A DNA stretch of 64,000 bases from Dinoroseobacter shibae DFL 12 = DSM 16493 (GTDB lineage: Bacteria > Pseudomonadota > Alphaproteobacteria > Rhodobacterales > Rhodobacteraceae): assembly GCF_000018145.1 (NCBI RefSeq), contig NC_009952.1, positions 1,984,001 through 2,048,000 on the forward strand. The letters run 5' to 3'. The notes under the pieces are model-generated. The model saw nothing but the letters and a program-made list of their open reading frames with translations. It had not been told where the DNA came from and did no database searches. This document shows, piece after piece, positions 10,613 to 64,000 of the stretch (within the stretch, counting starts at the first letter, position 1; each line of letters opens with the position of its first letter). A program made the translations under genes and the position numbers.

Positions 10613-10798
10613 CGCAATCTCCTTCAATCAATCGGGCAGTAAACCAACACCTCATTTTCCCACCATTCCACCTAAAGTAAATGCCAACGCTCCCAAGCCA
10701 GGTGATACGAAAAATCGAGCCTGACCATACACCTGCGCGCGCCCTGATCAGGCTCACTGGATGGCCGGGGCGCGCGCACTCAAAACGCGGAGCAGAAC

Positions 10799-13559: not shown

Positions 13560-13582
13560 GGCATTCCTCCTTGAACCGGGCC

Positions 13583-17378: not shown

Positions 17379-18620
17379 ATGGAGACTGCATCAACCTTGA
17401 CAGAATTGCAGTGGGGCGCGGAGATCCAGTTCCCGAACAGTCGAGCTCTGATAAGGACGCCTCACTTCGTGGGAGGGCGATACCCTTGTAGGAGTGTCGC
17501 TTATGTCCCGCGGATGATCCTCGAAGATCATTCGTTAACTTCAAACAGTTTAAGTGTGTTGGATCCATTCATGGGATCGGGCACGACTGCAATTGAAGCT
17601 GTCCGCTATGCGAATTCTGTGCACGGTGTGGAAGTGGACCCGTACGCCAGATTAATTGCTTCAGTCGCAACGCAGAAGTATTCTGAAGATGAGATTGGAA
17701 AAATTTCATTCCTGGTTTCCGAGATCGGGAGAGCGTTTGAACATCAATCCCTGTATGACGATTTGAAGCCTAGACTTGCAAACATCGAATACTGGTTTGG
17801 AGATGAAAACTTTTCCGATCTGTTGAAGTTGAAGTCTGCCATTTTTGAGCTTACGGATGAGGGGAAAGTACGCGAATTCCTTCTGGCTGCCTTTGGCGAT
17901 ATCATCAGAGCCTGTTCAAAAGCTGAAAGGCAGTCTTTAAAGCCATATATTTCGAAAAAGTATGAAAAGAAGCCTAAACGGGTTTTGGATGAGTTCCTCA
18001 GAATAGCTTCTAAGTATATTGATGCTGTATCGGAAAGCCAAAAGCATAAATCTGATGGAATCGTTTGGGAGGGTTTTGATGCAACTAATTTTGACGTTTC
18101 AACGTCGGTCGATCTAGCTATAACCTCACCTCCCTACATCAATGCCATGGATTATACGCGATGTATCAAACTCGAGAGCGCATGGATCGGAACCGCGGAT
18201 GACGATGCGATAAAGACAGTTCGCAATGCCCAGCTAGGTGAAAGGGTGCGCCGCAATCGAGAGGTACGGGAAGATTTCGTTTATTCGATCTCGCGGCAAC
18301 ACCTTGGAGAACTTGAAACGATTGATGAAGCTAGGTTCAAGACTGCGGTAGTTTTCTTCGATGATATGAGGAGAAATATGGAAGCCGTTTTCCGCGCGCT
18401 TAGGCCCGGAGGTTTCTACTATATCATCATCGGAAACAGTAGGATTCGAGGTGTAGACGTTCCAACTCATCAAGTAATCGCAGAGATTGCCGGTCAACTT
18501 GGTTACAAGTGGGACAAGTATTTCCTCTATCGCATCAGAGACCACCGCACTTCGATCCCCAGAGGGGATCGAGGGGGGAAAATCGAGTTTGAACATGCGC
18601 TTGGACTCATGAAGCCTTAA
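17379..18620 (+). CDS. DNA methyltransferase 2 (N4/N6 amino-type)
   Basis: A 413-aa second methylase with the same architecture: motif I DPFMGSGTT at residues 62-70, motif IV TSPPYINAMDY at 249-259, and a target-recognition-like region between. HFVGGRYPCRSV precedes motif I. It starts on the base after the first methylase's stop. The two are distant paralogues, not duplicates. Two methylases in one system suggest an asymmetric recognition site with one enzyme per strand, as in type IIS-like systems (inference). Same AT-rich composition as its neighbours. Confidence 0.85.
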   Translation: METASTLTELQWGAEIQFPNSRALIRTPHFVGGRYPCRSVAYVPRMILEDHSLTSNSLSVLDPFMGSGTTAIEAVRYANSVHGVEVDPYARLIASVATQKYSEDEIGKISFLVSEIGRAFEHQSLYDDLKPRLANIEYWFGDENFSDLLKLKSAIFELTDEGKVREFLLAAFGDIIRACSKAERQSLKPYISKKYEKKPKRVLDEFLRIASKYIDAVSESQKHKSDGIVWEGFDATNFDVSTSVDLAITSPPYINAMDYTRCIKLESAWIGTADDDAIKTVRNAQLGERVRRNREVREDFVYSISRQHLGELETIDEARFKTAVVFFDDMRRNMEAVFRALRPGGFYYIIIGNSRIRGVDVPTHQVIAEIAGQLGYKWDKYFLYRIRDHRTSIPRGDRGGKIEFEHALGLMKP

Positions 18621-18690
18621 CCGGTCGTTCCCTTGTCGACCATAGCGTGGCATCGTCTCTTGTAGATGATTCCACGCTGGCAAGGATACG

Positions 18691-20421
18691 ATGGCAGTTA
18701 ACTCGCAGTTCCTGTTTTTCTATATCGATGAACTTGTTAAACACCACTGGGTAGACTGGTTGGAAGGCCCGTTGGCCAAAGTGCCATCCGAAGAGCACAG
18801 AGGCGAGAGAGGATTCCAGCTGGCGGTCGGGGACACTGGAGCAGGTCCTCGAACTCGTGCTGGAGAAGCTTATCAACTCGGTATTCTCTCCGGTCGCATT
18901 GTTCGTCCTCGTATTGCGGGGGCGTCTTTCCCATCTGGTTGGCAGGCGGTGATTGAGGGTCGCGTTCCCTCCACTAAGCTTGGCTACTATTCCTATGTCA
19001 TCGGAAGGGCGCTTCGCGAGAATCCTTCTGATCCGAATCTTGATCGAGCACTAGACTGCCTCGCAAGTATTCTTATCCTACACATAGGCTTTCAATCTGA
19101 TGGTCGCTGGTTCAATACAGTACTGCTTTTCCAGTATGCCAATAATCAACTCTCAAGCTACTTGGGACGACAGCTGAACGATGATGAGGTCAGATATCTA
19201 GCTGCTGCGGTAATCAATACACTCGACAGTGAGGAGAATGATCTACTTTTGGATCGCTATGTTGCTGACCTACCAATAGAGAGCCTCCGCTTCGATTTGA
19301 ACGATGGAAAGTCTTTGCATTTTGACCTAAACGGACTTCCCGATATTGTTTCAGACAAGAAAGTAGGGATAAACGATTTTCAGAAAACTAAAGCAGCTCT
19401 CTTCTGGGCGGATCCTTCTCGCGGAATCTATATGCGCGCGGCGAGATCGCGAGGAATTCGCCTAATTCAAGAATTGATCAAAGTAGATCAGAGGCTTGCT
19501 CAATCAGGCGAGAGCAATTTACTCAACGAAGTTTTGGATTCCATTCAAAACAACGAAAATAATCCGGGCATTTTTTCGGTTGCAGAAGACGCATTTACAG
19601 ATTTTCCGGGTCTGCTGCGCGAATGGCAAGATCTTGAGGCCGAGCTTTTTGACGCAACCAACAAAGCCGTTGAAGCGGTCGACTTGGACACAGCGCCCCC
19701 GATCTGGCTAGCTTCGCAGCATGAGATACGTGGGTCGGTGCCAGCTGGGTCCGACGACGAAAGCGGAAGCGATGAAGTAGATGAGGTTGAGGCAGAAACT
19801 GCCGCAATTGAAGGCTCAACTACTGCTACTGACGAAGTTTCCATAGCTAGCGGTACTCAAGAAAAGAAACCAAGCAAGAAAATTGAATTGCCGACGAAAG
19901 AAGCTCTTCGAGAATTTATCGAGAGCGAGCTGGACGAAATTTCGGAAGCTCCCCCAGTGACTGCTGCACCTACAGAAGTCTCAGGAAAAAAAGGAAAGCC
20001 TCGAGCGACACAAACAGACTTTGCTGCGAAAGAAGCGCGAAACCGCAAGCTCGGTGAAGCAGGCGAGTACTTTGTATTCCAATATGAAGTTATGAAACTC
20101 ACCGCCGCGGGCAGAGTGGATCTGGCCAAGCGCGTCAAGTGGGTGTCAAAGGATATAGGCGATGGCCTTGGCTATGATATTCGATCTTTCGATCAAGATG
20201 GCAATGAGGTTTTTCTTGAGGTGAAGACAACGAATAGCGGAAGAGCAACACCATTTTTTGTATCTAACAACGAAGTTGCTGTTTCGGAAGAAAAAGGAGA
20301 CTCCTACCGTCTAGTAAGAGTGTTTAATTTTTCGAAGAAACCGAGGTTCTTTTCGTTAACAGGAAGCTTGTCCGAAGTGCTTCAGCTCGAAGCAACGTCA
20401 TATCGAGCTCGAGTGGTATAG
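18691..20421 (+). CDS. DUF3883 (NO VEIN C-terminal) PD-(D/E)XK-like protein, candidate restriction component
   Basis: A 576-aa protein. The C-terminal domain (about 450-576) starts RNRKLGEAGEYFVFQYE and has GDGLGYDIRSF (Asp496) and EVFLEVKTT (Glu510, Lys512), the PD-(D/E)XK-like pattern of DUF3883 and Mrr-type nuclease folds. Residues about 350-385 are a highly acidic, Ser-rich linker. The N-terminal 340 residues are mostly helical and unrecognised (WVDWLEGPLAKVP, PSGWQAVIEGRVPSTKLGYYS). AGGA precedes the ATG, 70 bases after methyltransferase 2. Context makes it the cutting or sensing subunit of a methylation-based defence system. Cleavage itself is inferred. Confidence 0.7.
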   Translation: MAVNSQFLFFYIDELVKHHWVDWLEGPLAKVPSEEHRGERGFQLAVGDTGAGPRTRAGEAYQLGILSGRIVRPRIAGASFPSGWQAVIEGRVPSTKLGYYSYVIGRALRENPSDPNLDRALDCLASILILHIGFQSDGRWFNTVLLFQYANNQLSSYLGRQLNDDEVRYLAAAVINTLDSEENDLLLDRYVADLPIESLRFDLNDGKSLHFDLNGLPDIVSDKKVGINDFQKTKAALFWADPSRGIYMRAARSRGIRLIQELIKVDQRLAQSGESNLLNEVLDSIQNNENNPGIFSVAEDAFTDFPGLLREWQDLEAELFDATNKAVEAVDLDTAPPIWLASQHEIRGSVPAGSDDESGSDEVDEVEAETAAIEGSTTATDEVSIASGTQEKKPSKKIELPTKEALREFIESELDEISEAPPVTAAPTEVSGKKGKPRATQTDFAAKEARNRKLGEAGEYFVFQYEVMKLTAAGRVDLAKRVKWVSKDIGDGLGYDIRSFDQDGNEVFLEVKTTNSGRATPFFVSNNEVAVSEEKGDSYRLVRVFNFSKKPRFFSLTGSLSEVLQLEATSYRARVV

Positions 20422-20479
20422 GCAATGCACTGGGCGAAGTTAAAAAACCAAGGTTTGACTGAATTTGAGAGCTAATGTG

Positions 20480-20827
20480 ATGACCCGACGAAAAACCCTT
20501 GTTGATCTAAAAGAGTATCCTACCGCGTTAGAAATGGCTCGGGCGTTTTACCGAGAGAAGGGCCACCTTCGACAAAGCAAGGAGTGCCGCGAGATTGCCG
20601 ATTTCTTGGGTATGTCGAATATTGCGGTATGGCACGCGTACTTGAGAGGGGACCTTGGTGTCCCGTCACCAAATCCCCAACGAGCTAAAGCTTGGGCGAC
20701 TGGCAATGTGTTCTATGAAACACCCGACCACCCTTGCAGGCGATGTGGGTCGATTCGTAGAAAGCCCGGAGACGACATCTGCTACGACTGCGAAGAGCGG
20801 TATAGGGCCGACCAGCGAAGAAAATGA
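20480..20827 (+). CDS. Small HTH plus zinc-ribbon protein
   Basis: A 115-aa product from ATG 20480 (an upstream TTG at 20465 is in frame). Residues about 30-65 form an HTH (ECREIADFLGMSNIAVWHAYLRG). The tail has a four-Cys zinc ribbon, CRRCGSIRRKPGDDICYDCEERYRA. It ends the defence cassette, 50 bases from the right-end arm repeats. It could be a transcriptional controller of the cassette or an excision factor. No family name is assigned. Confidence 0.55.
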   Translation: MTRRKTLVDLKEYPTALEMARAFYREKGHLRQSKECREIADFLGMSNIAVWHAYLRGDLGVPSPNPQRAKAWATGNVFYETPDHPCRRCGSIRRKPGDDICYDCEERYRADQRRK

Positions 20828-20855
20828 TAAATGAAGTCGTCCAAGGGCGCGATGT

Positions 20856-20876
20856 CGTTGCAAAATCGTTGCAAAA
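20856..20876. repeat. Right-end pair of CGTTGCAAAA arm sites
   Basis: Two direct copies at 20856-20865 and 20867-20876, the same 10-mer as the tandem pair at 5181-5200 and the inverted copy at 5122-5131. It lies 50 bases inside attR. This symmetric placement points to integrase arm binding. Confidence 0.6.
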
Positions 20877-20878
20877 GC

Positions 20879-20900
20879 AAAAACCGCCCCGGAGGGCGGC
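20879..20900 (-). terminator. Intrinsic terminator of tRNA-Asn, island-supplied
   Basis: On the minus strand CCGCCC-TCCG-GGGCGG is followed directly by TTTTTG. It lies about 33 bases past the tRNA 3' end. Because it is inside the island boundary, the island brings its own terminator for the rebuilt tRNA. Confidence 0.75.
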
Positions 20901-20925
20901 CTTGATACTCTCTTGTTGTAAAAGA

Positions 20926-20980
20926 GAGATTTGGCTCCGGCGGTAGGGATCGAACCTACGACCAATTGATTAACAGTCAA
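20926..20980. repeat. attR: 55-bp repeat inside tRNA-Asn
   Basis: Identical to 5000-5054. It supplies the 3' 49 bases of the intact tRNA-Asn plus six flanking bases; the match ends where the tRNA anticodon arm continues into chromosomal sequence. Confidence 0.92.
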
Positions 20981-21006
20981 CTGCTCTACCGCTGAGCTAC
21001 GCCGGA
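20932..21006 (-). tRNA. tRNA-Asn (anticodon GTT)
   Basis: A 75-base tRNA on the minus strand with encoded CCA. The acceptor stem TCCGGCG pairs perfectly with CGCCGGA. The D arm is GCTC...GAGC, the anticodon loop CTGTTAA with GTT, and the T arm GTAGG-TTCGATC-CCTAC. The 3' part is restored by the island's attR, so the gene stays functional after integration. Confidence 0.97.
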
Positions 21007-21075
21007 ACTGGCGTGCGATGTAGCAACTCGCTGCGAGGCTGTCCAGAGGGTGCAGGGAAAAACTGGCAACTATTT

Positions 21076-21981
21076 CTATACTGCACGGAACACGGTCTGC
21101 GATGTCAACGGGCCTTCGTGATCGGCCTCATTTCTTGATGCCATATCAATGAGATGCGCAAGGACGTTGCGCGCGGCGGCGGGCAGGAGGGGACGCGGGG
21201 TCTCGGTGTAGATCCGCGCCGCCAGCGCCGCGGCGGTGCCTGGCGCCTCGCCCAGGGCGGCACGGATCTGGGCGCTGCGCATCTGCCTGTGGGCGACCAG
21301 CTCGGCGATGCGAGCCCGCGGGTCGACAATCGGCGCACCGTGCCCGGCGTGGAAGGTCGCCTCCCTCCGCCGCGCAAGCAAGTCCAGCGACGCCATGAAG
21401 GCCGACAGATCGCCATCGGGCGGCGAGACCAGGGATGTCGACCAGCCCATCACGAGATCGCCGCAGAACAGCGCGTCCTGTTCGGGACAGGCGAAACTCA
21501 GGTGGTTGCCGAAATGTCCCGGCGTCCACAGCGCCTCCAGGGTCCAGTCGCCGCCGCCCACCCGGTCGCCATGGGCCATGCGGATGTCGGGCTCGAAGGC
21601 GTGGTCCACCCCTTCGCCGCCCTCCAATGCGCCGCCTTCTGCCAGCGCCGCCATGACCGGGCTGCGCCCCGCCGACGCATCGCCAAAGGCCAGCACCGGG
21701 GCCCCGCTGCGCGCGGCGAGTTCCCGGGCGCCGGGGCTGTGATCAAGATGGGCATGGGTGACAAACACATGGCTGACGACCTCTCCGGGATCGAGCAGCC
21801 CGAGGATCGTGTCGACCTGGTCGCCCCCGGCAGGCCCCGGGTCGATCACGGCCACGCGCCCGGTGCCCAGCACGAAGCTGTTCGTGCCCCAGTAGGTCAT
21901 GGGCGACGGGTTCTCGGCGATCACCCGCCGCAGGCCGGGCGCCAGCGTGGCGATGCGCGGCGGACGTGGCGGCAGGTTCAT
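21076..21981 (-). CDS. MBL-fold metallo-hydrolase (LACTB2-like)
   Basis: A 301-aa metallo-beta-lactamase-fold hydrolase. The metal motif is FVTHAHLDHSPGA, with further ligands in TPGHFGNH, FCGDLVMG and HAGHGAPI. The C-terminal 80 residues form the winged-helix-like tail (RQMRSAQIRAAL... LPAAARNVLAHL) seen in LACTB2-type hydrolases. The start ATG at 21981 follows AAGGGG on the minus strand. It is divergent from the histidine kinase gene, 45 bases away. The substrate is unknown. Confidence 0.85.
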   Translation of the reverse strand: MNLPPRPPRIATLAPGLRRVIAENPSPMTYWGTNSFVLGTGRVAVIDPGPAGGDQVDTILGLLDPGEVVSHVFVTHAHLDHSPGARELAARSGAPVLAFGDASAGRSPVMAALAEGGALEGGEGVDHAFEPDIRMAHGDRVGGGDWTLEALWTPGHFGNHLSFACPEQDALFCGDLVMGWSTSLVSPPDGDLSAFMASLDLLARRREATFHAGHGAPIVDPRARIAELVAHRQMRSAQIRAALGEAPGTAAALAARIYTETPRPLLPAAARNVLAHLIDMASRNEADHEGPLTSQTVFRAV

Positions 21982-22026
21982 CGCGTCCCCTTTCGCCCGG
22001 AGACGGCGCGGTCTAGGCTCTCGTCC

Positions 22027-50738: not shown

Positions 50739-51683
50739 TCAACGGGTGCCCTTGTTATAGGGCACCATCAGGGCGGCGGGAACCTCTGCGCGGCGCGACA
50801 TGACGATCAGGGCGAGGATCGACAGGATATAGGGCAGCATCAGGAACACCTGGTAGGGGATGTCCGCGCCGAGGCCGGTCTGTTGCAGCCGCACTTGCAG
50901 GGCATCGAAGGCCGCGAAGAGAAGTGCGCCGAGCAGCGCCTTGCCCGGGCGCCAGGCGCCGAAGACAACCAGTGCGATGCAGATCCAGCCGCGGCCATTG
51001 ACCATCTCGAAGAAGAACGAGTTGAAGGCCGACATGGTCAGGAACGCGCCGCCCACCGCCATCAGGCCCGAGCCGACGATGACCGCGCCCATGCGCAGGC
51101 CGGTGACGCTCAGGCCCTGGGCCTCGACGGCGGAGGGGTTTTCGCCCGCGGCGCGCAGGGCCAGGCCCAGCGGCGTGCGGTAGAGGGTGAAAGCGGTCAG
51201 GCCCGCGACGGCGAAAGCGAGATAGGTGAGCGGGGTTTGCGAAAAGAGGGCCGGGCCGAGGAGCGGCAGGTCCGACAGAAGCGGGATCTCGTAGGGTTGG
51301 AACGCCTCGATCCGCGGGGGGGAGGAGACCTCGGGCAGCGCCACGCGGTAGGCGAAATAGGTGGCGGAGGTCGCCAGCAGCGTGATGCCGAGGCCGACCA
51401 CGTGTTGGCTCAGGCCGAAGGGGACGGTGAGCGTGGCATGCAGGAGGCCGAACAGCATCCCCGCGCCGAAGGCCACGGCGACGCCGGTCCACAGGTCCGT
51501 GCCGGTATAGACCGCCATCCAGCCCGCGAAGGCGCCCGCGACCATGATCCCTTCGATCCCGAGGTTGAGCACCCCGGCGCGTTCGCAGATCAGCTCGCCC
51601 ATGGTGGCGAAGATCAGCGGGCTGGCGATGCGGATGGCGGCGGCCCAGAAGCTGGCCGACAGGAGGATGTCGAGGATTTCCAT
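50739..51683 (-). CDS. Nucleoside ABC transporter permease 2
   Basis: A 314-aa permease with about eight TM segments. GELICERAGVLNLGIEGIMVAGAF is the hallmark of the YufQ/NupQ-type permeases that work with BMP binding proteins. RTPLGLALRAAGENPSAVEAQG is the coupling loop. It is separated by one base from the partner permease gene. Imports purine or pyrimidine nucleosides in known relatives. Confidence 0.88.
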   Translation of the reverse strand: MEILDILLSASFWAAAIRIASPLIFATMGELICERAGVLNLGIEGIMVAGAFAGWMAVYTGTDLWTGVAVAFGAGMLFGLLHATLTVPFGLSQHVVGLGITLLATSATYFAYRVALPEVSSPPRIEAFQPYEIPLLSDLPLLGPALFSQTPLTYLAFAVAGLTAFTLYRTPLGLALRAAGENPSAVEAQGLSVTGLRMGAVIVGSGLMAVGGAFLTMSAFNSFFFEMVNGRGWICIALVVFGAWRPGKALLGALLFAAFDALQVRLQQTGLGADIPYQVFLMLPYILSILALIVMSRRAEVPAALMVPYNKGTR

Positions 51684-51684
51684 G

Positions 51685-52723
51685 TCAGTCGCGCACCACC
51701 CGGAAGCGTGTCAGCAGGATGGCGAGGACCATGGACAGGAGCGCGAGTGCGAGCAGGATGTCGGCGATATAGGTGGGCACGTCGGCCGCCCGGCTCATGC
51801 TGTCGGCGCCGACGAAGACGCCCGCCACGAAGAGCGCCGAGACCACCACGCCGAGCGGGTTCAGGAGGGCGAGCATCGCCACGATGATGCCGGTGTAGCC
51901 AAAGCCCGGGCTGAGATCGAGGGTGAGCGAGCCCTTGAGCCCCGCCACCTCGGAAAACCCCGCCAGCGCCGCGAGCCCGCCCGACAGGAAGGCGGTTTTC
52001 AGGATCACCGCGCCCACCGGGATGCCCGCGAAACGCGCGGCGTCCGGGTTCTGACCCACGGCGCGCATCTCGTAGCCCAGCGTGGTGCGGGTCTGGATCA
52101 CCCAGACGGCGGCGGCGGCGATCAGGGCCAGCGCAAAGCCCCAGTGCAGGCGCAGCCCGTCCACGAGGCGCGGCAGCCGGGCCTCGGGGATCAGGCGCTC
52201 GGACTTGGGCCAGCCCATGCCCATGGGGTCCTTCAGCGGGCCTTCGAGCAGCATGGAGACGAAGAGAAGCGCGATGAAGTTCAGCAGTAGCGTGGTGACC
52301 ACCTCGTCCACCCCGAGCCGGGTTTTGAGATACGCGGGGCCGAGCAGCAGGAGCGCGCCGGTCAGCATCGACGCGATCACCAGCACCGGCAGCAGGACGC
52401 CCGCGGGCCAGGGCAGAAAGCCCGTGCCCAGGACCACAGTGATGACCGCGCCGCCGTAAAGCTGCGCCTCCGCGCCGATGTTCCACAGCTTGGCGCGGAA
52501 GGCGACGGCGACCGCGAGGCCGGTGAAGATCAGCGGCGTGGCGCGGTTGAGGGTCTCCAGCAGGGCGAATTTGGAGCCGACGGCGCCCTGCACGATCAGC
52601 CCCAGCACCGCGAAGGGATCGCCGCCTGCCACCAGCGCCAGGCCCGAGGCCGCGATCACGGTCAGGGTGAGCGCGACGGCGGGCAGGCCGAGGGTGCGGG
52701 TCAGGGTCGGGGCCGGGATGGCT

Positions 52724-52734
<11 letters not shown>
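51685..52734 (-). CDS. Nucleoside ABC transporter permease 1
   Basis: A 349-aa permease (YufP/NupP-type) with many TM segments. RATPLIFTGLAVAVAFRAKLWNIGAEAQLYGGA and GYEMRAVGQNPDAARFAGIP are family markers. The start overlaps the ATPase gene's end by 11 bases. It pairs with the 50739-51683 permease. Confidence 0.88.
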
Positions 52735-54267
<1,533 letters not shown>

Positions 54268-54268
<1 letters not shown>

Positions 54269-55287
54269 CAGGAGGAGGTCGGCTCTTCGTCGTTGATCTC
54301 GACGGTGAAGGTGCCGGCCTTGATGGCGTCCTGGCGTTCCTGCACCAGGGTCTTGATCTCGGCCGGGACCTTGTCCTCGAAGGTGCCCAGCGGCGCGAGG
54401 CTGCTGCCGCCTTCGCGCATGTAGGAAAAGACCCCGTAATTCGCCGCCTCGAATTCGCCCGCGTTGACCGCCGCGATGGCGGCCTGCAGGGTCGGCTCGA
54501 AATGCCACAGGGCCGAGGCGACCACGGTGTCGGGATAATCCGCCTGGGTGTCGATCACGTTGCCGATGGCCAGAAGGCCCCGTTCCTGCGCCGCGTCCGA
54601 CACCCCGAAGCGTTCGGCATAGAGAAGGTCGGCGCCGTTCTCGATCATGGCGAAGGCGGTTTCCTTGGCCTTGGGCGGGTCGAACCACGACCCGATGAAG
54701 CTGACCTGGAAGGTCACGTCCGGGTTGATCTCGCGCGCGCCGGCCATGAAGGCGTGCATCAGGCGGTTGACCTCGGGGATCGGGAAGCCGCCGACCATGC
54801 CGATATTGCCCGCCTCGGACATCGCCCCCGCGATCAGGCCGGTCAGGTAGGCCGCGTCCTGGATGTAGTTGTCGAACACGGCGAAATTGGGCAGGCTCGG
54901 GTCCTCAAGGAAGGAGGAGCCCATCAGGAAGGCCACCTCGGGGTAGTCGGCGGCGACCTCGCGGGCCTCGGCCTCGACCGCGAAGACCTCGCCGATCATC
55001 AGCTCGATCCCGCTCTCGGCGTATTCGCGCATCACGCGGGGGTAGTCGGTATTGGCGACGTTTTCGGAGAAGGTGTAGGTGATCTGGCCCGCGGCGGCGG
55101 CGGCTTCAGCGGCGATATGGATGCGGCTGACCCATTGCTGCTCCACCGGGACGGTGTAGACGCCCGCGACCTTGATCGGGTCGGCGGCGGCGGCCGGGCG
55201 GACGAGGACGCCCGCAGCGCCCAGCGCAAGGGCGGAGGAGACGAAGGCGCGGCGGCTGAGGCCGGTCCTGGCTGGTGGCTGTGACAT
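54268..55287 (-). CDS. BMP-family nucleoside-binding protein
   Basis: A 339-aa periplasmic protein with a twin-arginine-like signal (LSRRAFVSSALALGAAG). The mature part has KVAGVYTVPVEQQWVSRIH, NIGMVGGFPIPEVNRLMHAFMAG and MIENGADLLYAERFGV, typical of BMP/PnrA-like proteins. It is the first gene of the nucleoside ABC operon on the minus strand. The Tat-type signal is a little unusual because many relatives are lipoproteins. Confidence 0.85.
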
Positions 55288-55512: not shown

Positions 55513-57096
55513 TCAGTCCTTCTTGGCGTCCGCCTTCCAGTTGCTCCAGCCGCCTTCCGGGGCCTTGGATTCCGCGGGCGGGAGCACCTCGGCATCCGGC
55601 ACGGGCGGCTGGGCGGTGTCCCGGCTGGGCACCGGGGCGGCGTGGCGCGATGCCAGCGCCCCGCGGCGCAACAGGCCGCCACCCCCGGGGGCCGGGGTGT
55701 CCTCGGCCGGGGCGCCAGCGCCGAACCGCCCGGCAAAGCGGCCCCCTGCGCCGGGCTGGCCCTGGGCCGCCCCTGCCCCGAAGCGGCCTGCGAAGCGACC
55801 ACCGCCGAAGCCCGCGCCCGGTTGGGGCGCGCCCTCGGCTGGCTGGGCCCCGGCACCGCCGAAACGGGTGCCGAAGCGCGCGCCGAATCGCCCGCCGCCC
55901 TGGGGTGCGTCCCCGGCGGCCGGGGCTCCTGCCCCTGCAAAGCGCCTGCCGAAGCCCTGGCCTGCCGGGGCCTCGCCGCCCTGGCCGCCGGCGAAACGCC
56001 CGCCGAACCGTCCGCCCTGGCCTGCAGGGGCGTTGCCACCCTGCCCGCCGCCGAAACGACCGGCGAACCGTCCGCCTTGGCCCGCCGGGGCGTTGTCTCC
56101 CTGCCCGCCGCCGAAGCGACCGGCGAAACGGCCTGCGCCCGGGCCTTGTTGACCAGCGCCTTGGCCGCCGCCGAAACGACCTGCGAACCGACCGCCCGCG
56201 CCGCCCTGGCCTGCCGGTGCGTTGCCGTCCTGGCCACCGCCGAAGCGACCCGCGAAACGTCCGCCCGGCCCGCCCTGGCCTGCCGGAGCGTCACCGCCCT
56301 GGCCGCCGCCGAAGCGACCGGCGAAACGGCCTGCGCCCGGGCCTTGTTGGCCAGCGCCCTGGGCCGCGCCGCCCTGGCCTGCCCCGGCAAAGCGGCCCCC
56401 GAAGCCACCTTGACCGCCGCCGCCTTGCGCGCCCGCGAAGCGCCCGCCGAAGCCCGCGCCCTGCCCGGCTTGACCGGCGCGCTGCGAACCGCCGAAGCCG
56501 CCGCCCTGGCCGAACCGGCCGGCGAAGCCACCGCCCTGACCGAACCGGCCACCGCCGGGGGCGGCACCGGCGCCCTGGCCGAACCGGCCCTGTCCTGCGC
56601 CCGCTCCGGCCGCCGCACCGCCGCGGGCCCCTGCGAAGCGGCCGCCGAAGCCGCCTTGACCGGCGCCGGGTGCCGCGGCCCCCGGCGCGCCGCGCGGACC
56701 GGCGAAGCGTCCGCCGACCCCGCCGCCCTGGCCCCCGGCGGCCTGTCCGGCCGGCCCCGGCTGTCCGGGCTGCCCGGGCTGGCCCATGCCGGCGAAGCGT
56801 CCGCGCAAGCCGCCCTGACCCGCCTGCCCGCCGCCGAAGCGACCGGCGAACCCGCCCTGCGAGGCGGCAGGCGCCTCGGCGCCTTCGTCGGGTGGCGGTG
56901 CGGCGAACCGGCCGCGCCCGAATCGTCCCGGGCGGGCCTGGGCGCGGCCCCCGAAGCCGGTCGCGGGGGCGGCGGTTTCGGGCGCGGTCTCGGTTTCGGC
57001 CGCTTCGGTTTCGGGTGCCGCCGTATCGGGTGTCGCGGTGTCGGGTGCAGAACCGGCCGCACCTTTGGTGGATTTGCGGGTCGGGCGTTTTGTCAT
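55513..57096 (-). CDS. Gly/Arg/Phe-repeat protein (GRFAGRFGGGQ repeats)
   Basis: A 527-aa low-complexity protein. Residues 1-46 are a basic then acidic Thr/Pro/Glu head. About 47-460 is Gly-rich with Arg-Phe pairs; a regular array of GRFAGRFGGGQ units begins at residues 256, 279, 302, 322 and 342, with a variant at 362 (periods 23, 23, 20, 20, 20). The tail (461-527) is Pro-rich and charged and ends GGWSNWKADAKKD. There is no Cys, Tyr, signal peptide or TM. ATG 57096 follows GGGAG. Differences between repeat copies fall at third codon positions of this frame, which supports it over the long antisense frames. RGG- or FG-like condensate or matrix behaviour is inferred. Divergent from the sulfotransferase-like gene. 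Confidence 0.7.
   Translation of the reverse strand: MTKRPTRKSTKGAAGSAPDTATPDTAAPETEAAETETAPETAAPATGFGGRAQARPGRFGRGRFAAPPPDEGAEAPAASQGGFAGRFGGGQAGQGGLRGRFAGMGQPGQPGQPGPAGQAAGGQGGGVGGRFAGPRGAPGAAAPGAGQGGFGGRFAGARGGAAAGAGAGQGRFGQGAGAAPGGGRFGQGGGFAGRFGQGGGFGGSQRAGQAGQGAGFGGRFAGAQGGGGQGGFGGRFAGAGQGGAAQGAGQQGPGAGRFAGRFGGGQGGDAPAGQGGPGGRFAGRFGGGQDGNAPAGQGGAGGRFAGRFGGGQGAGQQGPGAGRFAGRFGGGQGDNAPAGQGGRFAGRFGGGQGGNAPAGQGGRFGGRFAGGQGGEAPAGQGFGRRFAGAGAPAAGDAPQGGGRFGARFGTRFGGAGAQPAEGAPQPGAGFGGGRFAGRFGAGAAQGQPGAGGRFAGRFGAGAPAEDTPAPGGGGLLRRGALASRHAAPVPSRDTAQPPVPDAEVLPPAESKAPEGGWSNWKADAKKD
55972..56331 (-). repeat. In-gene array of 60-69 bp repeats
   Basis: Six units encode GRFAGRFGGGQ-type blocks plus a linker containing NAPAGQGG. 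Unit lengths are 69, 69, 60, 60 and 60 bp between starts. Two of the units share a longer near-identical stretch around 56131 and 56320, suggesting recent duplication. Confidence 0.7.
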
Positions 57097-57122
57097 GCGG
57101 AATGCTCCCTGGGAATGCGTTT

Positions 57123-57151: not shown

Positions 57152-57281
57152 CGAGCGCGCAGAAACGCACGGTCCCTGCCGAAGGGTATGCCGCGTGCGG
57201 GCTTTGCGTGTAAACAGAAATTGAGCGTTTCCGCCCCCTGACGGGCCCCTGGGGCCCGGGATGCCTCCTGAAGGACGACAG

Positions 57282-57860
57282 ATGATTGAACAAAGAGATT
57301 TCGTTGCCGTGGTGTCGGGCCTGCCCCGATCGGGCACATCGATGATGATGCGCATGCTGGTGGCCGGTGGGCTGCCCCCGGTGGTGGACCACGAACGCAC
57401 CGCCAATGACGACAACCCCCATGGATATTTCGAGTTCGAGCCGGTCAAGGCGCTCAAGGAGGACGACAGCTGGGTCGCGAAATCGAAGGGCCAGGTGGTC
57501 AAGGTGATCTACAAGCTGGTCTATGACCTGCCCATCGACGTGCCCTACCGGATCGTGTTCTTGCAGCGCGACCTGGGCGAGGTGGTGGCCAGCCAGGAAA
57601 AGATGCTGGAGCGCGAGGGGCGCGACCCCCATGCGGTGGACCGCGACTTGATGATCAAGCTGTTCCAGGGCGAGGTGCTGGATTTCCAGACCTGGGCCAG
57701 GGCGCAGCGCAATATCGAGATCCTGTTCGTGGATTACAGCGCCATCGTCACCGAGCCCGAGGCGGCGGCGCAGAAGATCGCGGAGTTCTTCGATTGCGGT
57801 CTCGATGTGCGCGCCATGGCCGAGGCCGTGGACCCGACGCTCTACCGCAACCGCGCCTGA
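57282..57860 (+). CDS. Small sulfotransferase-like P-loop protein
   Basis: A 192-aa protein. The PAPS-binding-like loop is VVSGLPRSGTSMMMRML near residue 10. Later features are YRIVFLQRDLGEVVASQEKML, a 3'-phosphate-binding-like RD(L)xEVVAS segment, and LFVDYSAIVTEPEAAAQKIAEFF. It is shorter than most sulfotransferases, so it may be a minimal form. AAGGA precedes ATG 57282; a start at 57261 is also in frame. It lies between the GRF-repeat gene (divergent) and the M50-HlyD gene (convergent). No Tyr occurs in the GRF protein, so it is unlikely to be its tyrosine-sulfation enzyme. Confidence 0.75.
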   Translation: MIEQRDFVAVVSGLPRSGTSMMMRMLVAGGLPPVVDHERTANDDNPHGYFEFEPVKALKEDDSWVAKSKGQVVKVIYKLVYDLPIDVPYRIVFLQRDLGEVVASQEKMLEREGRDPHAVDRDLMIKLFQGEVLDFQTWARAQRNIEILFVDYSAIVTEPEAAAQKIAEFFDCGLDVRAMAEAVDPTLYRNRA

Positions 57861-57912: not shown

Positions 57913-60900
57913 TCAGGGGATCCAGCCCCAGACCTCGATCTGGAAGAACCGCACGATCAGGCGGGAGAACGCCTCCCAGGTCTTCATCTCGGCCCCTTCG
58001 ATCTTGGCGAACCCGGTCATCTCGGGACGGAAGAAGCCCTCTTCGTTGGGAAACTGGGTCTTGACGCGGACCACGCGGCCGAACTCCTCGGCCTCCGCCG
58101 AGGGCGCGATGGAGACCACGGTGCCGATCCGTTCCTCGTCGGGGATGGCCCAGGCCTTGAGCCGGACGCGGTCGTTGACCTCGACCAGCCCGATATCGGT
58201 TTCCGACACCAGCACCTCCGCCCGGGCGATCTCGTGGTCCTCGATCTCGACGAACAGCTCGCCCACCTGGAGGTATTTCCCGCGCAGAAGCTGCACGTTC
58301 TCGGTCACGATCCGGCCGTCGGCGGTGGCGCGCAGCTCGACCTTGTCGAGCTGGTCGCGGTAGAAAGCCAGCTCGGCATTGAGCCGCTCGATCTCCGCCT
58401 CGGCCACGGCCACGTCCGGCGCCGAGGGCGGCGCGGTCACATCCGCCAGCACCGCCTGGGCCGAGCGCAGGTCGATCTGGCCGGTCTGGTATTCCAGCCG
58501 CAGGCGTTCGTATTCCACCTGGGAGATCGCGTTGCGGGCAAAAAGCTCATCCGCGCGCTCCGCCTGGGAGCGCAGGAAGGGCAGCTCCGCCTCGGCCCGG
58601 GCGACGTTTTCCTCGGCGATGGCGATCTCTTCGGCGGTGGCGCCGTCGAGCAGGTCCTGCAGCCGGGCCTCTGCCTGGGCGAGCTTGGCCACGCGCACAT
58701 CCACCTCGAGCCGCGGTTCCCAGTCGGACATGCGCGCCAGCAGGTCGCCCTCGCTGACCACGTCACCCTCGTCGATATGGATCTCGACCAGCTCGCCCGC
58801 CACGCGCGCGCCCACCTCGATCCGGGTGTCCGGCAGGATGGTGAAATCGCCCCCCACCTCGAACGCATAGGGCTGGAAGGCCGCGTAGATCAGCGCGCCC
58901 GCCGCCGCCAACAGCGTGAGCCGCCGGATCCAGGCCCAGCGGCGCGATTTCGGCGCAGGCTCGGCAAGGACGCCCGGCAGGGGCCGGGAGCCGAGCCTGG
59001 TCAGGTCGCGCGACTGGCCGAGCGCCAGGGCCCGGCCGGTTTGCGGCACCGGCACCATGGCCCGGCTTTGACCGGGCGCGGCCGCGACGCCCGCCCCGGC
59101 CCTGCTCCCGGCCGGCGCGGCAAAGCCGCCTGCGCCGCCCGCAGCGAAGCCGCCCGGCCCGCCGCCGAAGCCGCCGCCGGCGCCGGCGCCGCGTGTGAAA
59201 CCGCCGCCCGCGCCCTGCGCGGCAAAGCCCTCGGCCCCGCCGAAGCCGCCCGCGCCGCCCTGGGCTGCGCGCGCGGCCTGCTTCTCGGCCATCATGGTCT
59301 TGACCCCATGCTCCATCGCTTTGTGCTGCTTCGATTTCATCGACATCACCCAGAAGCCGATCGCCACGAGCAGGAAGAAGAAGAGCGCCGCGCCCGAGCC
59401 GCCATAGCGGCCCACCAGCGCGCCCGACACCCACACGAAGAGGAACGACAGCACCAGCCCCATGAACAGAAGCGAGCCGACCGTGTAGAAGATGAAGGCG
59501 CGTTTCTCGCCCGCGCTCGGCTCGGGATAGGTGAAGCCCATCTTGCTCTGGTTGTTCCTGAACAGCCAGGCATGGGCGCGCTGCTTCAGCATCTCCTGGC
59601 CGAAGAAGGTCGTGAGCCACTTGTACCCGTCTCCGGACATCAGCGGGAAGGCCGTGAACACCAGGGTCAGGAGCGCGATCTGCGACACCAGCAGGGTCAT
59701 GTCGGGGATCACGGTCTGGGAGTGGCGCGTGAAGGCCCACAGGGTGGTGCCTGCCGCGAACAGGAAGAGCCGCGCGCGCATGGTGGTGGAATAGACCGCC
59801 AGCTTGGCTTCGCGCGGCAGCTTGTAGACCGCCTGCTCGTCCACGGCGAAGCGCGGGATGACATAGAGGATCATGCGGATGCCGAAGGCGGGCACCTTGG
59901 CCCCCTGGCGGTGGATCGCCCAGCCGGTGAAGAAGGCCGCGCAGAAATTGACCGTCAGGGTCGAGATCACCAGCCGCCAGACCAGGTCGATCGCCCCGCG
60001 GGCGTTGGAGATGCTGGTGCCGTATTCCGACAGCCGGGTGAAGACGGCCATGAACGCAAAGAGCGTCAGCGGCCAGAGCAGCCATTTGAACCAGGCCATC
60101 CAGCCGAAGAGCGCGTTGAGCACCGCGAAAAGCCCGTTGGGCGCGAAGAGCTTGATGATGCCGGTGCCGGGGGCCTTGTCCTTCGGGTCGGGCCCGGTGC
60201 CGAAGGCCGCCCGGGGTGCCGTCGCCTCGGCGCGGGCCCTGGCGGGCTCCGGGCCGGGTGCGGTCGGGGCGGCGCGATCGGCGGGTGCGTCGGGCGGGTC
60301 TTGCGGGGCGGTGTCGGCGGCGTCCCGGGTGTCGTCTTTCTTGGCGGGTTTGCGGGCCACCCCGTCATGCAGGCCGGTCTTGCGAAAGAAGGTCTGCTTT
60401 CGGCGCGGTTGCGGACCGGGGCCCGGGGCGGGGGTCGCGGATGTGTCGGCCTTGCCGTCGGGCGCGGGGGTGTCGGCGGGGGACGCGGCCTTGTCCGTCG
60501 AAGGCGCCTGCGAGTCTTTGGGGGGGCTTTCGGCGGGTTGGTCCGGGTCGGGCCGCGCGGTGCCTGCGGCCCCCTTGGCGACGCGCGCGGCGGCGGCGGC
60601 CGCCCGGAAACTGGGCGCGGCGGGCGTCTCCCCGGAGGCGGGCTCCGGCGCGGGCTTGGGAGGATCGGCACGGTCGTCCGGCGCGTCGGAAAAGATCAGC
60701 TCTTCGAGCCCGTCGATATCGTCCTCGGGAGGGCCATCGAAGGCAGAGCCCGCCTCCGGCAGCAGGTCCTCGAACGCGTCGAACTCGTCCCGGTCGGCGT
60801 TATGCGCCCGGCTTTGGTCGATGGGGGGACGCAGCGGCGCGGCCCGGTCGGGCCTCGGGGACGGGGCCTCGGCGCGGGGGTCGGTGCCGGTTGCCTCCAC

Positions 60901-61206
60901 CAGCACGCCGGCGGCGACCATCTGTGCCGCAAACCCCGCGATCGTGGCTTCGCGCACGCCGGTGCCGAACCGGGCGCGGAACGCCTTGCCGGCGGCGGTG
61001 AAATCCTCGCCCCGCTCCAGCTGGGTCAGCAGGAAGAACTCCTCCGCCCCGAGACGAAACAGCCGCCCGGATTTCGCGTCCTTGTAAAACCCGTGGCGCG
61101 GCTTGCCCTCCTCGACAGGCGCGCGGGTGAGCTTTGCATCTGGGCTTAGTCTGTAACGCTTGCGCGGCGTGCCATCGGGCACCAACGCTGCATGGCTTGG
61201 GGGCAT
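57913..61206 (-). CDS. PqqD-like / degenerate M50 / HlyD fusion membrane protein
   Basis: A 1097-aa multidomain protein. Residues 1-105 are a PqqD-like winged-helix domain (GFYKDAKSGRLFRLGAEEFF). 105-340 is a Pro/Ala-rich acidic linker. 345-625 is a polytopic membrane core like M50 site-2 proteases. Where relatives have HExxH, this has FCAAFFTGWAIHRQG (421-435); the second motif survives as SGDGYKWL (524-531). 650-698 is a Gly/Phe-rich linker (GGFGG repeats). A TM at about 757-776 is followed by a HlyD-type adaptor with hairpin coiled coil (850-1000). Such fusions occur with peptide export or modification. The protease site appears lost, so it may bind or translocate a substrate rather than cut it. 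Confidence 0.8.
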   Translation of the reverse strand: MPPSHAALVPDGTPRKRYRLSPDAKLTRAPVEEGKPRHGFYKDAKSGRLFRLGAEEFFLLTQLERGEDFTAAGKAFRARFGTGVREATIAGFAAQMVAAGVLVEATGTDPRAEAPSPRPDRAAPLRPPIDQSRAHNADRDEFDAFEDLLPEAGSAFDGPPEDDIDGLEELIFSDAPDDRADPPKPAPEPASGETPAAPSFRAAAAAARVAKGAAGTARPDPDQPAESPPKDSQAPSTDKAASPADTPAPDGKADTSATPAPGPGPQPRRKQTFFRKTGLHDGVARKPAKKDDTRDAADTAPQDPPDAPADRAAPTAPGPEPARARAEATAPRAAFGTGPDPKDKAPGTGIIKLFAPNGLFAVLNALFGWMAWFKWLLWPLTLFAFMAVFTRLSEYGTSISNARGAIDLVWRLVISTLTVNFCAAFFTGWAIHRQGAKVPAFGIRMILYVIPRFAVDEQAVYKLPREAKLAVYSTTMRARLFLFAAGTTLWAFTRHSQTVIPDMTLLVSQIALLTLVFTAFPLMSGDGYKWLTTFFGQEMLKQRAHAWLFRNNQSKMGFTYPEPSAGEKRAFIFYTVGSLLFMGLVLSFLFVWVSGALVGRYGGSGAALFFFLLVAIGFWVMSMKSKQHKAMEHGVKTMMAEKQAARAAQGGAGGFGGAEGFAAQGAGGGFTRGAGAGGGFGGGPGGFAAGGAGGFAAPAGSRAGAGVAAAPGQSRAMVPVPQTGRALALGQSRDLTRLGSRPLPGVLAEPAPKSRRWAWIRRLTLLAAAGALIYAAFQPYAFEVGGDFTILPDTRIEVGARVAGELVEIHIDEGDVVSEGDLLARMSDWEPRLEVDVRVAKLAQAEARLQDLLDGATAEEIAIAEENVARAEAELPFLRSQAERADELFARNAISQVEYERLRLEYQTGQIDLRSAQAVLADVTAPPSAPDVAVAEAEIERLNAELAFYRDQLDKVELRATADGRIVTENVQLLRGKYLQVGELFVEIEDHEIARAEVLVSETDIGLVEVNDRVRLKAWAIPDEERIGTVVSIAPSAEAEEFGRVVRVKTQFPNEEGFFRPEMTGFAKIEGAEMKTWEAFSRLIVRFFQIEVWGWIP

Positions 61207-61600: not shown

Positions 61601-62332
61601 ATGAGTTTGGAAGTCATCTCCGATTGCGCCGCTGTCTCCTATGGAGATCCAGATCACCTGATCATCATGTTCAGCTCGACGACCGCGGTTCGGCGCGGCG
61701 ATTTCGATTTCAAGGATTTCTCGAAGGATCTGCCACAGACGATCCTGTTCTTGCGCGATGATGACGTCCGGACCGGATATCACAACGGAATCAATGGCCT
61801 GACAAGCAATCCTGATGAAACGGTTGAATTCCTGCGCTATTTCATCGACAAGATCGGGCCGAAGCGGGTGACCATGTTCGGCACATCGATCGGCGGGTAT
61901 GGCGCGCTCATGCACGGCTTCCTTCTGGGTGTGGACGACATCATCACCGCCGGGACGGTGAGTTATGTGGATCCGGCGACCCGGGATGCCAAGGGCGGCG
62001 CGGGCGAGCGGGTGCCGATGTCGATGCAATGGGGCGTCGACTGGTTCGCCAGCCGCGGGGTGGAGCCGAAATACCTCGATACCTGGCCGCTGATCGAGAA
62101 GAACGCCGACAAGGTCACGGCGGTGAAGATGTACTACTCGCCCGATGACGAGGTGGATTCGACGCAAACCCTGCACGTCGCCCGCCTGCCCCATGTCCGG
62201 GCCATCGCCCGGCCGGGAACTTCGCACCGCTACATCGCGTTGCAGCTGGTGAGGGACGGCACGCTTGCGCGGGATTTCGCGACGCCCACGGATCAGCTGC
62301 TGTCGCTCGACCCGGAGGCTGCTATCGTCTAG
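61601..62332 (+). CDS. Alpha/beta hydrolase
   Basis: A 243-aa protein. The nucleophile elbow is FGTSIGGYGALMHGF; the acid is probably Asp in YYSPDDEVDS and the base His in GTSHRYIALQL. It has no signal peptide, so it is probably cytoplasmic. ATG 61601 follows a C-run with only a weak ribosome-binding site. Upstream in-frame codons run through non-coding sequence. Substrate unknown; the proximity to exported-protein genes may indicate a role in glycoconjugate metabolism. Confidence 0.7.
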   Translation: MSLEVISDCAAVSYGDPDHLIIMFSSTTAVRRGDFDFKDFSKDLPQTILFLRDDDVRTGYHNGINGLTSNPDETVEFLRYFIDKIGPKRVTMFGTSIGGYGALMHGFLLGVDDIITAGTVSYVDPATRDAKGGAGERVPMSMQWGVDWFASRGVEPKYLDTWPLIEKNADKVTAVKMYYSPDDEVDSTQTLHVARLPHVRAIARPGTSHRYIALQLVRDGTLARDFATPTDQLLSLDPEAAIV

Positions 62333-62385: not shown

Positions 62386-63312
62386 ATGGTGATCGTTTCT
62401 ACCCCCCTGTCCCGCTGGCTGACCCGGTGCGGCGGCCTTTTGCTGGCGGGTCTGGTCCTCGTGCTGGGCGCGGCAGGCGCGGAGGCCGCCACCCAGAAGG
62501 TCGAGCGCAAGATCTCCGTCGGCGGGATGGAGCGGTCCTATATCGCCTATGTGCCCGACAGCGCGCGCTCGGCCGCGGAGGTTCCGGTGCTGTTCGCCTT
62601 CCATCCGGGCTTCGGCAGTGCCGACGCCTTCAGCGGTCAGATCAACATCCACCGCGCCCCGGGGGCCGACAGTTTCATCGTGGTCTATCCGGAGGGGTTT
62701 CGGCGGTCGTGGAACAGCGGCGATTGCTGCGGTCCGGCCATGCGGCGCGGCATCGACGACATCAGTTTCGTCAAGGCGATGCTCGAAGATCTCAGGCGGT
62801 TCGGCAATATCAGCCCCAACCGCAATTTCGCCACCGGGTTTTCCAACGGGTTTGCCTTCAGCCAACACCTGGCCTGCAACCTGCCCGACAGTTTCGCCGC
62901 CATTGCAGGCGGCGGCGGGGTCAAGGACACCAGCAAGCAATGCGCCAACCCCAAACCGATCTCGGTCATGGTGATGCACGGGCTGATCGACGAGCATTCG
63001 CCCTTTGACGGCGGCCAGAGCAAGATCGAGCGGGCGGGTTTTCGCGTCTCGGTCCAGACGGTGGAGACCTTCTGGCAGCGGCAGAACCGCTGTTCGGGGA
63101 CGCGCACGACCTCCAACCTGGACGGTGTCAGCTGCACGACCCATACCGGCTGCACCGGCGGCACCGAGGTGGTGATCTGCCCGGTCCCCGAGATGGGCCA
63201 TTGGTGGCCGGGCCATGAAGGATCGCGGGCGGGCGAACGCGCCCTCGGACCGTCGCGGGGCGATCTGAACGGGTCGGCGGCGGTGGTCCGGTTCTTCCGC
63301 TCTCATTTCTGA
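62386..63312 (+). CDS. Exported PHB-depolymerase/LpqC-type esterase
   Basis: A 308-aa protein with a signal peptide (about 1-34, ending EAAT). The nucleophile is in ATGFSNGFAFSQHLAC, the acid in MHGLIDEHSPFDGG, and the base His in MGHWWPG. VLFAFHPGFGSADAF is the usual oxyanion start. Cys-rich segments (GDCCGPAMRRG, GTRTTSNLDGVSCTTHTGC) suggest disulfides. Members hydrolyse polyesters or feruloyl esters. The gene is 53 bases after the hydrolase gene, same direction. Confidence 0.82.
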   Translation: MVIVSTPLSRWLTRCGGLLLAGLVLVLGAAGAEAATQKVERKISVGGMERSYIAYVPDSARSAAEVPVLFAFHPGFGSADAFSGQINIHRAPGADSFIVVYPEGFRRSWNSGDCCGPAMRRGIDDISFVKAMLEDLRRFGNISPNRNFATGFSNGFAFSQHLACNLPDSFAAIAGGGGVKDTSKQCANPKPISVMVMHGLIDEHSPFDGGQSKIERAGFRVSVQTVETFWQRQNRCSGTRTTSNLDGVSCTTHTGCTGGTEVVICPVPEMGHWWPGHEGSRAGERALGPSRGDLNGSAAVVRFFRSHF

Positions 63313-63343: not shown

Positions 63344-64000
63344 ATGACGCCATTTCTTGACGGGACCGTCGCGATCGTGACCGGCGCGAGCAGCGGCCTT
63401 GGCCGGTCGACCGCCCTTCTTCTGGCCCGTGCGGGGGCGTCGGTCGTGCTGGTTGCGCGCAGCCAGGCCGGGCTCGACGCGGTCGCGGGGGACATTGCGG
63501 AGGATGGCGGCGCCTGCCTTGCGGTGGCGGCCGATCTCGGCGCGGATGCCGATGTGGCCTGGGCGGTGGCCGCGGCGGTGGAGCGGTTCGGGCGCATCGA
63601 CTTCCTGCTCAATTGCGGCGGCAATATCGCCGGGCTGGGCAAGCTGCTGTGGGAGATCACGCCGGAGGAGTGGGAGACCAGCTTCCATGCCAATGCGACC
63701 GGGGTTCTGAACCTGATCCGCCACGTGGCGCCGGTGATGATCGACCAGGGTCACGGGCGGATGCAGTTCCTGACGACCTCGGCCACGCTGGTGCCGAAGG
63801 AGAAGACCGCCTGCTACGCCTCGGCCAAATCCGTGGCCAACCACATGGTGCAGACCCTGGTCGAGGAGGTCGGCGCGCGCGGGGTGACGGCCAATGTCTT
63901 CAACCCCGGCCCGATCGACACGGAAAGCTATCGCGAGATGACAAGTTCGATCGAGTTGACCGCGCAGAACCAGCAGACCGCGCCGCAGAGCCCGGATGTG
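63344..64000 (+). CDS. Short-chain dehydrogenase/reductase (3' truncated by window)
   Basis: 219 residues are visible and the frame is open to the window end. The NAD(P) motif is VTGASSGLGRST, the NAG-like motif NCGGN, catalytic Ser in LTTSATL and YxxxK in CYASAKSV, and PGPIDTE follows. It is a classical SDR. ATG 63344 is 31 bases after the esterase gene. Substrate unknown; it may form an operon with the two hydrolases. Confidence 0.85.
   Translation, partial: MTPFLDGTVAIVTGASSGLGRSTALLLARAGASVVLVARSQAGLDAVAGDIAEDGGACLAVAADLGADADVAWAVAAAVERFGRIDFLLNCGGNIAGLGKLLWEITPEEWETSFHANATGVLNLIRHVAPVMIDQGHGRMQFLTTSATLVPKEKTACYASAKSVANHMVQTLVEEVGARGVTANVFNPGPIDTESYREMTSSIELTAQNQQTAPQSPDV

Follow-up and report, generated by a model that had tools for sequence, protein, structure and literature searches.

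A Gly/Phe-rich repeat protein in a PUFA-synthase-like secondary-lipid cluster of Dinoroseobacter shibae, a candidate FG-type scaffold

FG-nucleoporins and the low-complexity domains of FUS/hnRNP type are FG or sticker-spacer low-complexity proteins. In Mycobacterium tuberculosis the ABC transporter Rv1747, treated in a section of the review PMC8573418 on disordered regions, clusters by phase separation, and a transporter of this kind therefore exists. According to the main text of PMC3098273, 'Type O' secondary lipid synthase clusters are found in Dinoroseobacter, Parvularcula and Gloeobacter. Here we describe a repeat protein encoded in a cluster that resembles secondary lipid synthase clusters, within a window of 64,000 nucleotides from D. 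shibae DFL 12 (contig NC_009952.1), for which a first-pass annotation from the letters alone had singled out a Gly/Arg/Phe protein of 527 residues.

The repeat gene and selection on its frame

The protein is real and is encoded by the minus strand (Table 1), while the plus strand of 55513-57096 is an open frame unrelated to it. Its 527 residues include 179 Gly, 105 Ala, 45 Arg, 44 Pro, 42 Gln and 40 Phe and no Tyr, and a head (residues 1-65) precedes the low-complexity region. The period of 20 to 23 residues that had been ascribed to the protein holds for residues 256-401, where successive units measure 23, 23, 20, 20, 20, 20 and 20 residues, and is loose elsewhere; Tandem Repeats Finder reports 60- and 69-nt arrays at 55954-56127 and 56157-56328. 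The AGGGAG ahead of the start is a plausible ribosome-binding site, a consensus promoter scan gave no match, and terminator predictions were at about the level of chance. Directly downstream, also on the minus strand (50739-55287), lie ABC transporter genes for a BMP-type binding protein (by Pfam), an ATPase and two permeases (both by eye), which are probably unrelated to the repeat gene.

Table 1. Features of the repeat gene and its surroundings, in window coordinates
Feature	Position	Strand	Basis or remark
GRF/FG-repeat protein gene	55513..57096	-	527 aa, stop codon within coordinates
Shine-Dalgarno-like AGGGAG	57105..57110	-	8 nt 5' of ATG at 57096, read directly
Low-complexity region, residues 66-481	55654..56901	-	G 41%, F 8.9%, R 8.7%, Q 9.6%
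Regular array, residues 256-401	55894..56331	-	23- or 20-residue units starting GRF[AG]GRF; last unit FGRRF
C-terminal tail EGGWSNWKADAKKD	55516..55557	-	GGWxNW[KR] motif common to 4 counterparts
ST1, small sulfotransferase, divergent from repeat gene	57261..57860	+	PF13469, PF00685
Fusion protein (FUS), RRE-like / S2P-like / HlyD, 1097 aa	57913..61206	-	profile matches and alignment
FUS RRE-like winged helix, residues 12-108	60883..61173	-	AlphaFold2 model, fold and profile matches
FUS S2P-like membrane domain without HExxH, residues 345-640	59287..60174	-	weak profile and fold matches
FUS Gly/Phe-rich linker from membrane domain to HlyD, residues 640-712	59071..59289	-	composition
FUS HlyD / RND-type periplasmic adaptor part, about residues 795-1097	57916..58824	-	Pfam/NCBIfam profiles
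Conserved neighbour, alpha/beta-hydrolase-like	61667..62332	+	by eye; UPF0227 match below cut-off
PHA/PHB-depolymerase-like esterase	62386..63312	+	matches below curated cut-offs
Short-chain-dehydrogenase-like gene, continuing past window end	63344..64000	+	by eye and similarity to cluster relatives

Drift between repeat copies had been described as exclusively synonymous. This is true of the pair of 30-base copies on which the claim was built, which align at 56048 and 56237 and have four differences, each at codon position 3, but it is too strong for the array as a whole because about 40% of the differences do not fall on position 3. Across 22 repeat segment pairs, differences at codon positions 1, 2 and 3 number 32, 75 and 161 (161 of 268 at position 3), and codon differences comprise 115 synonymous and 84 non-synonymous ones. 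Among the pairs of 45-nt stretches of at least 80% identity, taken over the whole gene, from which these segment pairs derive, all 372 of 372 offsets are divisible by 3. For the 22 pairs, the Nei-Gojobori dN/dS is 0.21 in the repeat-protein frame, a value given without error because the pairs overlap, are not independent and were picked for high identity; the values for the other minus-strand frames are 3.43 and, in a frame with stops, 1.02, and the opposite-strand frames give 2.63 and 1.39, both open, and 0.27, which is interrupted by stops. With a dN/dS of 0.21 and frame-preserving repeats against 2.63 and 1.39 for the open antisense frames, the minus-strand frame is under purifying selection, as the first-pass annotation had argued.

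The synthase cluster and the fusion protein

The repeat gene is part of a PUFA-synthase-like 'secondary lipid' cluster. In the same genome (loci L034/L035) the cluster continues beyond the window to PUFA-type synthases, with genes for an ACP, a type I phosphodiesterase, an alpha/beta hydrolase, an 883-aa NAD-epimerase-domain protein and two giant synthases, followed by an FkbH-domain protein and a second sulfotransferase. By Pfam, the first synthase has NMO/FabK-like, KS, AT and ACP domains and the second has KS, AT, DH and PPTase domains, so that KS, AT, ACP, FabK-like ER and PPTase domains related to PfaA/PfaD are present in the cluster; the best NCBIfam model for both synthases is PfaA, at scores (906.5 for one piece of the first-scored protein, and 589.3) below the cut-off of 1010.1. 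Two KS matches, at 65-82% and 44-46% identity, are found in nine of the ten genomes or bins with loci of clade A (the clade of the window fusion protein, see below), a count covering those that hold L039-L047 and L054, and the window genome has the synthase pair too. The exception is the Deltaproteobacteria bin of L045, in which a contig with a clade-A fusion gene and ST1 is accompanied by no synthase match and is possibly misbinned. Parts of the cluster also occur with a fusion gene in Nevskia, Desulfobulbaceae and cyanobacteria, and proteins of this RRE-like/pseudoprotease/HlyD type keep company with synthase genes for secondary lipids in hosts that range from Rhodobacterales to Nevskia and cyanobacteria. 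These surroundings, comprising the sulfotransferase, the fusion protein and the PUFA-type cluster, are the best lead to function, one that the first-pass annotation, reading the gene without its genomic context, had passed over.

Two observations stand apart. At L029 (3606-4172) and L027 (7774-8265), two small proteins adjoining a fusion gene and a synthase have a segment resembling NTPxDxxGMVxDTPFxxxGVARxMExLxxRA in common, with and without Gly-rich parts. Within the window, GC content drops to 0.48-0.49 at 16001-20000 and is 0.58-0.61 in the rest of 4001-22000, compared with 0.65-0.73 elsewhere, which might mark an island.

Among 394 genomes of the family, 15 (counting self) have relatives of the fusion protein, and a scan of named genomes gave 45 loci. 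The N-terminal 100 residues of the fusion protein are modelled by AlphaFold2 (pLDDT 87) as a PqqD-like winged helix of RRE-like fold, the model best matching TbiB1 (E 9.1e-4), TfuB1 (2.1e-3), TigE (6.1e-3) and PqqD (0.093) in the PDB with a TM on the query of 0.59-0.68; the matched structures of TbiB1 and TfuB1 were solved bound to leader peptides. At the level of profiles, TfuB1 is again the best match among PDB sequences (E 0.0068), and Pfam PqqD matches only 3 members out of 25, at E 0.0039 for the strongest, the window protein not among them. The membrane domain matches the NCBIfam models for LiaK and daptide proteases far below cut-off. When its fold is compared, SpoIVFB and the M. jannaschii S2P rank first and second (E 0.0076/0.036, TM 0.34-0.36), with no fold match reaching E 0.001, and Pfam M50 matches 3 of the 30 members of the alignment. 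The HExxH motif is absent from 31 of 34 fusions, the window protein included, although L067 and L082, which are among the 31, span only a small part of the region; it is kept in L065, L069 and L071 (Acidobacteriota, Zixibacteria), where no synthase match lies within the fetched flanks. A protease function of the window's fusion protein was considered and is rejected because the motif is lost. The HlyD part scores above cut-off, with 55.7 for PF16576 (cut-off 30) and 114 for TIGR01730 (94.9).

In a tree of the fusion proteins, the window protein falls in clade A (10 rows, support 100/100), which groups with clade B (8 rows, 100/100) at a support of 98/96. The tree includes L045 and leaves out the partial L067 and L082 as well as L043, whose fusion protein is partial and which is still counted for its repeat protein. 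Proteins at L031 (9068-11221), L032 (8548-10719) and L033 (9124-11268) join S2P and HlyD parts and keep HExxH, read directly as HEFGH, HEMAH and HELGH; they lie near very large repetitive, perhaps secreted proteins and look like a separate system.

A Gly-rich chain beside or within the fusion protein

A search of 101 genomes with the repeat-protein sequence gave matches in two, self included, the other being a low-scoring 67-residue stretch with six stops. The protein has no match in Pfam, NCBIfam or PDB sequences, in keeping with the earlier statement that it belongs to no named family, and literature searches of open-licence PMC papers brought up no title or abstract describing it or the fusion protein in this cluster. 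Counterparts were instead sought by gene order, as proteins that adjoin ST1 and/or the fusion gene and reach at least 35% Gly over 60 aa. In all 10 of the clade-A loci that could be assessed, one of them gammaproteobacterial, a Gly/Phe/Gln-rich protein adjoins the fusion gene, usually together with this sulfotransferase; the loci are the window, Rhodovulum adriaticum (L039), Lamprocystis purpurea (L040), Ruegeria profundi (L041), Roseivivax lentus (L042), an alphaproteobacterial MAG (L043), Actibacterium lipolyticum (L044), a Rhodovulum MAG (L046), A. atlanticum (L047) and A. mucosum (L054). Loci L020-L023 are the same as L044, L046, L054 and L042, each counted once, and L045, the eleventh clade-A locus, is not assessable, its contig ending inside ST1, short of the repeat gene. 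Contig ends truncate the repeat proteins of L043, L046 and L047, and a run of unknown residues was removed from that of L040 ahead of counting. In Lamprocystis the repeat gene lies downstream of the fusion gene and another sulfotransferase-like gene. Since the Gly threshold also flags antisense or spurious frames (at L039, L046, L048, L049, L056 and L029) and alone is not specific, position and composition were weighed jointly.

The tail motif GGWxNW[KR] recurs in five of the eight repeat proteins with a visible tail, and, by eye, the proteins of L040 and L041, from different classes, have the tail GFEDQII[DE]G in common and a similar head. Heads and tails are therefore kept within subclades, and the middle keeps composition rather than sequence. 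The repeat gene is thus conserved by position, its counterparts agreeing in composition and in part in head or tail, and gene order can track fast-evolving low-complexity proteins where sequence search fails. With ST1 as the query, 390 genomes of the order gave three matches at E 1e-30 or better, namely self, the Ruegeria profundi locus again (same protein) and L088 (43% identity), which has no fusion gene and no Gly-rich frame within 17 kb; the same query found nothing on plasmids. In Rhodovulum adriaticum, ST1 appears as two overlapping frames (L039, 12884-13485), either a broken gene or a sequence error.

The composition of these chains points to a sticker-spacer grammar of the FG type rather than the RGG type. 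In the ten low-complexity regions Phe makes up 6-12% of residues, at a median spacing of 6-15, and in all ten it is mostly preceded by Gly or Arg and followed by Gly; Arg ranges from 0.5% (L043) to 8.7%, and RGG occurs at most once in each. Comparison of the repeats within the window protein shows Phe retained in 90/94 cases, Arg in 78/87, Gln in 76/87, Gly in 342/405, Ala in 84/125 and Asp in 0/19, counts that rest on the same overlapping, high-identity repeat pairs as the dN/dS values. Of the two likenesses that the first-pass annotation had drawn from the composition, that to FG proteins is upheld and that to RGG-like, RNA-binding proteins is not.

The fusion proteins of the sister clade have a comparable segment built into them. 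Stretches of 60 aa with 35% Gly or more occur within 8 of 8 clade-B fusion proteins, 3 of 10 in clade A and none of 16 others (among which the partial L067 and L082), and in L050 and L051 the clade-B stretch contains GGRFGGRF. In Nevskia, Desulfobulbaceae and cyanobacteria the fusion protein has neither a Gly-rich segment nor a partner, the scan for Gly-rich frames flagging a single one there (303 aa, L056). In clade B the segment precedes the membrane domain and in clade A it follows it, and both positions appear, from the order of hydrophobic stretches, to flank the membrane domain on its cytosolic side. A chain inside the fusion protein provides a fusion-type argument that the repeat protein and the fusion protein work together, but the argument is weaker than with folded domains, because Gly-rich frames arise easily in GC-rich DNA, and is further softened by the different position of the segment in the two clades and by a control with unrelated proteins. 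That control concerns a short helix-like motif, R[LI][LMR]A[AIML][LIA][AQ]AR, present in six of the eight clade-B segments, whose profile beats shuffles in three of the ten separate repeat proteins (L044, L046 and L047); 239 of 300 shuffles of the window protein score as high as the protein itself, and six of the nine others fail as well. With 89 unrelated proteins scoring 18.5 at the 95% level and 23.0 at most, L047 (23.4) stands out, and L044 (17.8) and L046 (18.0) do not, so an embedded helix was rejected as a universal feature. Under a looser rule, a hydrophobic/basic segment is found in eight of the ten repeat proteins, being absent from those of the window and L054, and in one of the eight clade-B fusion proteins, where the flank rule misses segments adjoining the membrane domain.

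Gly/Met-rich versions of the chain occur in the repeat protein of L046 and in the fusion proteins of L049 and L025. A covariation of Met between the linker of the fusion protein and its partner, suspected by eye, is contradicted by L047, which is Met-rich in the fusion protein only. At the clade-B locus L025, a further protein, rich in Gly and Met and with GRFGGGM units, is encoded at 3970-4569 next to the fusion gene and cut by the contig end, so that this locus carries the chain both in cis and in trans. The small proteins beside the clade-B fusion genes of L050 (7513-8037) and L026 (6712-7224), which have several LRxxLxxRKGG-like units set in a Gly-rich chain, are possibly another separate scaffold.

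Proposed role, rival readings and known systems

The reading that we favour, at a probability of roughly 0.42, sees the repeat protein as an accessory of the cluster that acts in the cytosol as a multivalent scaffold or by forming condensates; it would be disordered, to judge from its composition, and would gather the fusion protein, and probably tailoring enzymes and synthases, at the inner membrane and so couple the synthesis of a secondary lipid to its export. Phe, helped by Arg and Gln, would act as the stickers on a spacer chain of Gly, Ala and Pro. The repeat protein may associate with the cytosolic Gly/Phe-rich segment of the fusion protein, and where the fusion protein lacks this segment it would supply it in trans. 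Such an association would cluster the adaptor at the inner membrane, probably along with the synthases and the soluble tailoring enzymes, and from there a predicted long-chain, possibly sulfated product would be handed to a presumed export route. A bolder form, tentative and on balance unlikely, is a bacterial FG-repeat phase in which the Phe-sticker protein condenses with the Gly/Phe or Gly/Met segment of the adaptor, wiring a PUFA-type megasynthase to an exporter, the chain having changed places in evolution, as a protein of its own in clade A and within the adaptor in clade B.

It is conceivable, if quite unlikely, that the protein serves instead as a flexible chaperone for the product, its greasy Gly/Phe or Gly/Met chain holding a long lipid or coating lipid aggregates, much as the GGM tails of GroEL contact substrates. 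Hydrophobic Phe on a Gly chain in all ten proteins, the synthase pair in nine of ten genomes with clade-A loci and the Gly/Met-rich versions would suit such a role, but the window repeats conserve Arg and Gln as well.

Less likely again is a RiPP-like precursor or exported repeat peptide, bound by the RRE-like domain of the fusion protein and processed or exported by its membrane and HlyD parts, perhaps after sulfation. The RRE-like fold, the resemblance of the membrane domain to RiPP S2P proteases and the likeness of 20-residue repeats to multi-core precursors all speak for it. However, no leader is common to the ten counterparts, whose heads, by eye, differ except between L040 and L041, composition rather than repeat sequence is kept between species, the HExxH motif is missing from nearly all fusions, the N-terminal domain also aligns in loci without a repeat protein, and the window protein offers no Tyr to sulfate.

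A secreted surface or matrix protein is improbable. Repetitive Gly-rich proteins are often structural and an HlyD adaptor is encoded next door, but a hydrophobic N-terminus was found by simple hydropathy in none of the ten repeat proteins, and Pfam scans of 6 window proteins and 9 others of the cluster revealed no ABC exporter. An RNA-binding protein of the RGG type is very improbable: the Arg content of 8.7% and net positive charge of the window protein would fit, but the reading is rejected because of the RGG and Arg counts, Arg falling to 0.5% in L043 while Phe stays at 6-12%, and none of the scanned cluster proteins matches an RNA-related family in Pfam or NCBIfam. That the gene is a GC-rich repeat with long spurious frames and no protein is barely credible and largely refuted, for although long antisense frames are present and a crude, codon-based gene caller chose the opposite strand at the window locus, L020, L022 and L023 (correctly calling L021), the dN/dS, the preserved frame, the shared tails and the common strand of repeat and fusion genes in the loci seen stand against it.

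Returning to the scaffold reading, the repeat protein resembles FG-nucleoporins and FUS/hnRNP-type domains in carrying Phe stickers on a Gly-rich chain, the stickers being kept in the window repeats while the spacers drift; it differs in being bacterial, with no family match or detected RNA-binding domain, and in being encoded in a lipid biosynthesis cluster. The intramembrane metalloproteases YydH/LiaK and those of daptide systems (NF058609, NF041824) share the membrane region with the fusion protein at the level of a weak profile match, but the latter lacks HExxH, is fused to an RRE-like domain and HlyD, and is linked to lipid synthases. The synthases compare with the Pfa and secondary lipid clusters of PMC3098273 in being PfaA-related with FabK-like ER and PPTase domains, and with its Type O in a similar host range of alphaproteobacteria and cyanobacteria, a comparison made on the text rather than the domain-order figure; in that main text the words 'sulfotransferase', 'secretion' and 'glycine' have no occurrence, and no mention of a repeat protein or fusion protein was noticed. 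With Rv1747, as presented in the section of PMC8573418 cited above, the proposed system would share the clustering of a membrane transport protein by phase separation, proposed here, but its low-complexity chain forms a protein of its own in clade A and belongs to an HlyD fusion in clade B. An FG-repeat partner, its in-cis form in a sister clade and the link to lipid synthases would be new if true. A bacterial FG-type protein is met here with a conserved partner, a sister clade carrying the chain in that partner and a cluster with a measurable product, and this context therefore offers a tractable test of whether FG-type condensates organise bacterial megasynthases and export.
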